Positions 4,026 to 5,484 of a DNA stretch of 8,224 nt are shown here, one piece after another (the first letter of the stretch is position 1; each line of letters begins with the position of its first letter). The stretch spans positions 1-8,224 of the forward strand of contig WGEM01000510.1 of NCBI GenBank assembly GCA_015492755.1, in the 5' to 3' direction. The DNA is from Gemmatimonadota bacterium (lineage in GTDB: Bacteria > Gemmatimonadota > Gemmatimonadetes > Longimicrobiales > Gaopeijiaceae). Below the pieces are notes generated by a model that had not been told where the DNA came from, did no database searches, and worked only from the letters and a program-made list of their open reading frames with translations. A program made the position numbers and the translations under genes.

Positions 4026-4046
4026 GGTTGCATATGACAACTAATG
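4000..4046 (+). promoter_or_regulatory. Candidate MarR operator: repeated GTTG/CAAC half-sites
   Basis: Several overlapping repeats cover the promoter and start codon. CAACCAT (4003-4009) and ATGGTTG (4024-4030) form a perfect 7-base inverted repeat with centres 21 bases apart, two helical turns. GTTG (4027-4030) and CAAC (4038-4041) form a second dyad around the start codon. TGACAAC occurs at 4000-4006 and 4035-4041, and CTAATG at 4021-4026 and 4041-4046. MarR dimers bind palindromes that often overlap promoters, so autoregulation of marR-arsM from here is plausible. The exact operator is inferred. Confidence 0.45.
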
Positions 4047-4606
4047 TCTTCCCCGGCACTTCGGAGGCCCCGCCGGCCTTTGGTGCACCCGACACCGCGC
4101 TGGCCCGCGACACGGAGCGCTTCACACACCTCCTCACGGAGTTCATGCGCGCCGTGCAGTTCCGGGATCGGGATCGCGCCTGCTGCCACGGCGTGAGCGT
4201 CTCGCAGTGCTACGCGCTCCGGGCGCTGATCCTGGAGGGGCCGCTCTCCGTAAACGAGCTGGCGGCGCAGCTCTACCTGGACAAGAGCACCGCCAGCCGG
4301 GTGGCGGCGGGCCTGGAGCGTCTCGGCCTCGCGGAGCGCCGGCGCGCCCCGGAGGACCGACGCCTGGTGCGCCTCCACGCCACCGACGAGGGGCGGCGGC
4401 GATTCGCCCGCATCGAGGCGGATCTCCGGGAGAGCTACGGCGCGCTCCTGGCCACGCTGGATCCCCGGGCCAGACGGCCGGCGCTGGAGCTTCTGGAGCG
4501 ACTCGTGGACGCCGTCACGGAGGGAGTCGAGATCCGGGGCGGGCGCTGCTGCACGTCGTCCACGCAGACCCCCATCACCCACCAGGAAGGACCGGAACGA
4601 CCATGA
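4034..4606 (+). CDS. Cysteine-rich MarR-family regulator, likely controls arsM
   Basis: ATG at 4034 is chosen; a TTG two codons earlier (4028) is the only alternative that keeps the first helix. Neither has a ribosome site. The product is 190 residues, slightly longer than typical MarR proteins (140-160). It shows a MarR winged helix: helix 1 around 22-45, GPLSVNELAAQLYLDKSTASRVAAGLERLGLAERR as helix-turn-helix and recognition helix (about 73-108), then the wing with the family motif APEDRRLVRLHATDEG, and C-terminal dimerisation helices. Cysteines are unusually frequent: C50 and C51 (RACCHG), C59 (VSQC), and a C172-C173 pair near the end. MarR dimers pack their N- and C-terminal helices together, so these thiols could form an As(III) or other soft-metal site. 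The stop overlaps the arsM start (ATGA), so the regulator very likely controls arsM and itself. Metalloid sensing is an inference; redox sensing is an alternative. Confidence 0.9.
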   Translation: MTTNVFPGTSEAPPAFGAPDTALARDTERFTHLLTEFMRAVQFRDRDRACCHGVSVSQCYALRALILEGPLSVNELAAQLYLDKSTASRVAAGLERLGLAERRRAPEDRRLVRLHATDEGRRRFARIEADLRESYGALLATLDPRARRPALELLERLVDAVTEGVEIRGGRCCTSSTQTPITHQEGPERP

Positions 4607-5484
4607 AGGACACGACGACGGGTTCGTGTGGCGATGCCACGGCGCAGCCGACGGCGGAGGAGCGGCGGGCGGCGGTGCGCGAGCGCTACAGCCGCGCAGC
4701 CACCACCGGTGACGGGTGCTGCGCCCCCGCCTGCTGCGGCGGTGAGAACGACGCCAGCGGCGGGCAGCCGCCGGCCCGGGAGGTGAGTCTGGGCGTGGGC
4801 TACACCCCAGAGGATCTCGAGGTGGTGCCGGAGGACGCGAACCTCGGACTGGGGTGCGGCAATCCCACCCGCTTCGCCACCCTGCGGGAGGGCGACGTGG
4901 TGCTGGACCTCGGGTCCGGCGCCGGCATCGACTGCTTCCTGGCGGCGCAGCGCGTGGGTCCCACCGGTCAGGTCATCGGCGTGGACATGACGCCTGAGAT
5001 GGTGGAGCGGGCACGCGCGAACGCCCGACGCGGCGGCTACACCAACGTGGAGTTCCGGCTGGGCGAGATCGAGGCCCTGCCCGTGGCGGACGAGTCGGTG
5101 GACGTCATCATCAGCAACTGTGTGCTCAACCTCAGCGCGGACAAGGCTCGGGTCCTGCGCGAGGCCCACCGGGTGCTACGCAAGGGAGGCCGGCTCATCG
5201 TCTCGGACCTGGTATCGACGCTGCCGGTTCCGGCCGTCCTGGAAGGGAACCTCGACGCAGTGGCGGGGTGCCTCCCCACGCAGCGCGAGGCGTACCTCGA
5301 GACGTTCCGCTCCGCCGGGTTCACCGACGTGCGCATCGCCGAGGAGCATCCCTACCCGGCAGACTACCTCCTGAGCGACGCCGGGGTGCAGGCGTTCCTC
5401 GAGGCCCATCCGGACGAGGCGGCAGAGCTCACCGCATTCGCCGGGTCCATCTTCGGGGCGCACTTCGAGGCGACCAAGGGCTGA
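4603..5484 (+). CDS. arsM: Arsenite S-adenosylmethionine methyltransferase ArsM
   Basis: ATG at 4603 overlaps the marR stop. An AGGAAGG stretch near 4583 lies about 13 bases upstream, so coupling to marR translation probably matters. The product is 293 residues, normal for bacterial ArsM. The N-terminus carries the typical cysteine cluster C39-C40-x3-C44-C45 after an ERYSRAA helix. Then come GLGCGNP with C85, SAM-binding motif I VLDLGSGAGIDC (about 101-112), the acidic motif IGVDMTPEMVERAR, then ISNCVLNL with C173, and DAVAGCLPT with C223. Cysteines in these four regions correspond by context to the conserved As(III)-binding and catalytic set of the characterised algal ArsM (C44, C72, C174, C224). 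The enzyme methylates As(III) stepwise to mono-, di- and trimethyl arsenicals in the cytoplasm, using SAM and thiols. No arsenate reductase or efflux pump is in view, so methylation and volatilisation may be the local detoxification route. Confidence 0.95.
   Translation: MKDTTTGSCGDATAQPTAEERRAAVRERYSRAATTGDGCCAPACCGGENDASGGQPPAREVSLGVGYTPEDLEVVPEDANLGLGCGNPTRFATLREGDVVLDLGSGAGIDCFLAAQRVGPTGQVIGVDMTPEMVERARANARRGGYTNVEFRLGEIEALPVADESVDVIISNCVLNLSADKARVLREAHRVLRKGGRLIVSDLVSTLPVPAVLEGNLDAVAGCLPTQREAYLETFRSAGFTDVRIAEEHPYPADYLLSDAGVQAFLEAHPDEAAELTAFAGSIFGAHFEATKG

Follow-up and report, generated by a model that had tools for sequence, protein, structure and literature searches.

A MarR_ars-type regulator with conserved cysteines and a predicted clade-wide operator before arsM in a Gemmatimonadota bacterium

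Introduction

The closest known counterpart of the regulator treated here is AdMarR_ars of an Achromobacter strain, which adjoins arsV and reportedly represses it; As(III) and Sb(III) are said to release it, with Cys36, Cys37 and Cys157 being required. We have analysed a window of 8,224 nucleotides from a Gemmatimonadota bacterium (GenBank assembly GCA_015492755.1, contig WGEM01000510.1, positions 1 to 8,224), in which a gene encoding a MarR-family protein, marR, overlaps a predicted arsenite methyltransferase gene, arsM. An earlier note on this DNA had proposed the MarR protein as an arsenic sensor. The protein belongs to a clade linked to arsenic genes, and very probably it represses its own marR-arsM pair and is released by trivalent arsenic (or antimony) at conserved cysteines. 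This reading rests on the observed clade membership and arsenic gene neighbourhoods, on the conservation of the cysteines and on a promoter site found across the clade. The sensor type of this subfamily is already known (Yu et al. 2021, doi 10.1128/AEM.01588-21); what is added is the predicted clade-wide operator and the exchange of one regulator for another before arsM, not a new kind of sensor.

Results

The marR gene (4034-4606, + strand, 190 amino acids) and the arsM gene (4603-5484, + strand, 293 amino acids) have the ATGA at 4603-4606 in common, as the end of the former and the start of the latter, and the overlap described in the earlier note was thereby confirmed. The start of marR is presumed to be the ATG at 4034, and an in-frame TTG is also found at 4028. 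The ArsM sequence scored 312.3 bits with the NCBIfam arsenite methyltransferase model NF008823 (cut-off 263). In an alignment with PDB 5evj, its C85, C173 and C223 fall opposite cysteines of the solved protein. We take these conserved cysteines to have an As(III)-binding role. The second gene is predicted to encode an As(III) S-adenosylmethionine methyltransferase.

The window MarR matched Pfam PF12802 (MarR_2) with 58.4 bits (cut-off 27) over residues 52-110, and the structures nearest to its predicted structure model were MarR proteins. None of the ten NCBIfam models listed for it reached its own cut-off, and the OhrR model NF052638 gave a score of 25 against a cut-off of 200. Membership in the ArsR/SmtB family was ruled out (NF033788, 19.9 bits, cut-off 55), and PF01022 (ArsR HTH_5) was listed neither for the protein nor at its place in the genome. 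In a quick tree, a clade of 80 rows including the window and Achromobacter sequences was separated from five control MarR rows with a Shimodaira-Hasegawa-like approximate likelihood ratio test (SH-aLRT) value of 100. Judged from the sequences, this clade corresponds to MarR_ars, and we assign the window protein to the arsM branch of this known subfamily, with metalloid binding and repression as putative functions. The window was placed among 18 rows, all linked to arsM, by a branch with SH-aLRT 93 that was not starred, and its own branch is long; the smallest starred set containing it comprises 40 rows, 25 of them linked to arsM. The linkage to arsM is clustered on the tree but need not have a single origin: the label needs seven changes, at least three of which are forced by starred branches. 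By profile search, a MarR of the clade is present in 48 of the 395 genomes of the phylum.

All five cysteines claimed for the window MarR were found: C50 and C51 (codons 4181-4186), C59 (4208-4210), and C172 and C173 (4547-4552), all on the + strand. They had been described as a group of three just before the DNA-binding domain and a pair at the end; this holds for C50 and C51, which lie at the end of predicted helix 1 and precede the Pfam domain, whereas C59 is inside the domain, in predicted helix 2. C172 and C173 belong to the C-terminal tail. All five were retained in each of the 120 homologues listed (the best 120 of 953 matches). The fairer of two further counts used 35 rows found by profile or PF12802, in which L094 is the window itself and L128 and L141 repeat other rows: C50, C51 and C172 were cysteine in all 35, while C59 and C173 were each kept in 30. 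In locus L151 the pair is replaced by C-R-C. The count over 77 rows (window included; L009, L023, L047 and L056 excluded) gave 77 for C50/C51, 73 for C59, 64 for C172 and 66 for C173, the figure for the Cys-Cys pair being partly due to construction since open reading frames were picked by this pattern. The constant set thus consists of the Cys-Cys pair and one tail cysteine, and C50/C51/C172 is the likely thiol triad because these residues are invariant in the 35 rows and C59 and C173 are not. C59 was rejected as an obligatory member of a three-thiol site.

We take C50, C51 and C172 to be the equivalents of Cys36, Cys37 and Cys157 of MarR_ars. These positions hold in three of four Achromobacter relatives: the 163-residue proteins L073-L075, two of which are identical, have cysteines at 36, 37, 45, 151 and 157. 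In Stutzerimonas stutzeri TS44 (L045) they lie at 36, 37, 45, 151, 157 and 158. Both the L073-L075 kind and L045 have marR before a flavin monooxygenase gene. Three Pseudomonas relatives of 42-51% identity occur in plasmid records, none spanning 80% of the query. The suggestion that the cysteines are conserved only in MarR proteins adjacent to arsM was not upheld, as members that precede genes for an ArsV-like monooxygenase, ArsN1 or ArsN2 keep them as well.

The half-sites formerly proposed over the promoter proved to be one 19-base near-palindrome, TGGTTG-CATATGA-CAACTA (4025-4043, exact on the + strand), with the core GTTG-N7-CAAC at 4027-4041 and the presumed marR ATG in its centre. It is a predicted operator specific to the clade: after removal of duplicates and of six loci lacking the anchor (L018, L048, L054, L058, L097, L112), the core was found within 300 bases upstream of the Cys-Cys codons at 73 of 80 distinct loci, and with every other spacer between 0 and 20 bases the count stayed at 6 of 80 or lower. 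Among the seven loci lacking the exact core, L050 and L070 start at a contig edge, L100 is masked, and L006, L014 and L021 carry one-base variants. In the window the 19-base pattern with up to three mismatches gave five matches against 1.7 expected. As a control, 37 MarR_2 places in the own and related genomes, a subset of those listed, were compared: the operator was present at all six to which the clade profile gave 165-224 bits and at none of the 28 that scored 62 bits or less, and three further places had no hit with this profile. The inverted repeat CAACCAT...ATGGTTG (4003-4009 and 4024-4030) was rejected as the operator, since only GTTG-N7-CAAC is general in the relatives; CAACCAT at 4003-4009 is no general feature among those listed.

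The predicted marR-arsM promoter comprises a −35-like element TTGACA (3999-4004, + strand) and, 17 bases past it, a −10-like element TAATGG (4022-4027, + strand), which overlaps the operator. TATA- or TATT-type sequences stand at the −10 place in many relatives. A TTGAC starts 26-29 bases, usually 27-28, before the core at 55 of the 73 loci and at 0.8% of random anchors; the site therefore spans the −10 region and the probable start point of transcription. An in-frame ATG lies at the operator centre at 15 of the 73 loci, the window included. Among the best 120 of 953 homologues, 89 start with M-x-T, which may be explained by translation of the operator half-site as codons. Two GTTG-N7-CAAC sites with starts 15-16 bases apart lie side by side upstream of marR at L035, L051 and L036, which suggests paired dimers. 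A second operator-like palindrome, GGTTGCCCGGAGCAACC, is found in the own genome at G000:C516:5292-5308.

The neighbourhoods of the clade were surveyed at 81 loci, namely the best 80 of 99 and the window, with up to 4 kb on each side; a peptide containing the Cys-Cys pair was one of the two search patterns. An arsenic gene was present at 74 of them. At 72 this was a relative of ArsM, ArsV-like monooxygenase, ArsN1, ArsK-like transporter, low-molecular-weight ArsC or ArsR, and two more have ArsN2 (L018) or ArsQ and ArsL (L022). ArsM was counted at 29 loci, ArsN1 at 29 and ArsV-like monooxygenase at 36, where the name ArsV is given by context and the monooxygenases of L038, L041, L073 and L025 had no NCBIfam match at 1e-15. 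In a set of 30 loci from the phylum, with about 1.5 kb on each side, ArsM lay downstream at 19 and an ArsV-like gene at four.

In Pseudomonas sp. SJZ074 (L022, 1028-4522) the clade MarR adjoins genes matching the ArsQ and ArsL models, for arsinothricin export and biosynthesis, and has two GTTG-N7-CAAC sites upstream; it is perhaps the regulator of an arsenical antibiotic cluster. A single frame at L140 (1204-2313, + strand) fuses a clade MarR to an ArsN2-like acetyltransferase part (NF040501, 117.8 bits, slightly below the cut-off of 125), with an operator upstream. A clade MarR with the operator and no arsenic gene found is present at L013, L015 and L016; a same-strand gene just upstream matches threonine ammonia-lyase models at L013 and L016, and at L015 by clustering.

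MarR takes the usual place of ArsR in this window, as had been remarked before. At E values up to 1e-50, ArsM was detected in 287 of the phylum's 395 genomes. Among the 30 best-scoring ArsM loci, which are no random draw, ArsR as sought with one Pseudomonas sequence was present at 26, a clade MarR at two (L159, with the exact operator, and L168), both at none and neither at two. The same one-sequence test found ArsR at none of 29 arsM loci with a clade MarR from several phyla.

The source genome is fragmented (2.96 Mb in 637 contigs, 82% complete), and no match to Acr3 was found in it at this completeness. Its assignment to the Gemmatimonadota agrees with the named relatives that matched best, and stretches in the phylum set, for example L083 and L003, are identical to records named as Gemmatimonadota. 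Within the window, DsbD_TM (CcdA-like) and DsbA-like thioredoxin genes lie at 1580-3031 on the + strand, 5' of marR-arsM.

Discussion

A mechanism can be proposed for the pair, in which we infer the steps from dimer binding onward from homology and from the anatomy of the locus. A MarR dimer would sit between the −10 element and the start codon, on the core at 4027-4041, and would exclude RNA polymerase; the transcript would probably start at or beside the marR ATG. As(III) or methylated As(III) might be bound by C50/C51, where helix 1 ends, together with tail C172, perhaps of the other subunit. Such binding would alter the DNA-binding form and free the promoter, so that ArsM and more repressor would be made together; ArsM would methylate arsenite, and falling As(III) would close a negative feedback loop.

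Several observations weigh against this interpretation. The tail carrying C172 and C173 is modelled with low confidence, the last three ten-residue blocks having predicted local distance difference test (pLDDT) values of 74, 56 and 63, and the Achromobacter insuavis relative (L060) has cysteines at 38, 39, 47 and 153 only, without the last of the MarR_ars positions. The start codon of marR is presumed. L026 encodes a clade protein with no operator in the stretch examined, and L168 a clade MarR with none within the stretch covered. RGTTG-N7-CAACY occurs at two places in the own genome, the same number as for the backward control, and because it is not enriched there, the weight of the operator rests on its position and conservation. 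Four ArsR-type places over the cut-off lie on other contigs of the same genome, and their products could also act on arsM. No arsenic gene was detected by the tests used at seven of the 81 loci (L013, L015, L016, L023, L048, L055, L080), of which L023 stops 195 bases past marR, and seven of the 30 phylum-set loci had no arsenic reference gene inside flanks of about 1.5 kb. At L080 (4447-5670, + strand) a clade member directly precedes a gene for a SoxC-type sulfite dehydrogenase, which may reflect a different ligand or a chance neighbour.

The protein might instead be a thiol-redox or electrophile switch of the OhrR or 2-methylhydroquinone (2-MHQ)/catechol type, forming disulfides of its Cys pairs under oxidative or quinone stress and responding to arsenic only indirectly. 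Its two adjacent Cys pairs, the naming of some homologues as 2-MHQ/catechol repressors in the source records and the thiol-disulfide genes at 1580-3031 would fit such a switch, but arsenic genes at 74 of 81 loci, the OhrR score far below its cut-off and the dispensability of C59 and C173, as opposed to C50, C51 and C172, make it improbable. More remote still is a MarR that acts on other targets, with its overlap with arsM as incidental operon packing. The operator is a predicted one and regulators can adjoin unrelated genes; against this, arsM is downstream at 29 of 81 loci and at 19 of the 30 in the phylum set, the operator sits on the pair's own promoter, and only one further exact operator-like place was found in the 82%-complete genome.

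A narrower form of the metalloid-release interpretation, with a probability that overlaps it, takes the ligand to be an organoarsenical, a trivalent methylarsenical (MAs(III)) or an arsinothricin-type compound, in place of As(III), with arsM induced when the cell responds to arsenical antibiotics. Elsewhere the clade regulator does stand beside ArsN1 (an arsinothricin acetyltransferase model), the presumed ArsV flavin monooxygenase and, at L022, ArsL/ArsQ. The window pair, however, has arsM alone, whose substrate is As(III), and As(III) and Sb(III) are the reported signals of MarR_ars; we consider this form unlikely, if less so than the redox switch. A bolder extension, to which we give somewhat less than even credence, is that in part of the Gemmatimonadota a MarR metalloid sensor with a five-cysteine site (the triad C50/C51/C172 with C59 and C173) has displaced ArsR at arsM, that one 19-base element acts at once as −10 flank, operator, start point of transcription and start codon, and that the repressor also covers ribosome entry on a leaderless message.

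Regulators of the MarR_ars type are thus found upstream of arsM in Gemmatimonadota, Acidobacteriota and other groups, in addition to the arsV-like/arsN1 sets of Pseudomonadota, and the clade gains a testable predicted operator, GTTG-N7-CAAC. The locus is a clear case in which arsM is preceded by one family of arsenic regulators in place of another. If the operator is true, it would permit regulon prediction and the design of arsenic biosensor parts based on MarR and not on ArsR. Neither this operator nor a link of MarR_ars to arsM, nor the exchange of regulators, was found in print in the literature covered, which did not include the original MarR_ars paper, and the portions of PMC8060452 and PMC8649762 available to us contain no MarR-arsM pair.

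Compared with known systems, the window protein resembles MarR_ars in its MarR fold, in the Cys-Cys pair and C-terminal cysteine at equivalent places, in its arsenic gene neighbours and in sharing a clade with Achromobacter L073-L075 (C36, C37, C157). It differs in that marR precedes arsM and not arsV, in its length (190 versus 163 amino acids), in the additional C59 and C173, the former being equivalent to C45 in Achromobacter, and in a predicted operator that spans the presumed start codon. With OhrR and other thiol-switch MarR proteins it has the fold and potentially reactive cysteines in common, although it gave no match over the cut-off and has arsenical neighbours. The second gene product is similar to ArsM of solved structure (PDB 5evj, 4fr0) in the methyltransferase domain and in the three cysteines aligned with 5evj, and is shorter, with 293 amino acids against 321-387 in the five solved ArsM sequences listed. 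ArsR/SmtB repressors occupy the same position before arsM and presumably do the same job, but they form a protein family separate from that of the window MarR.
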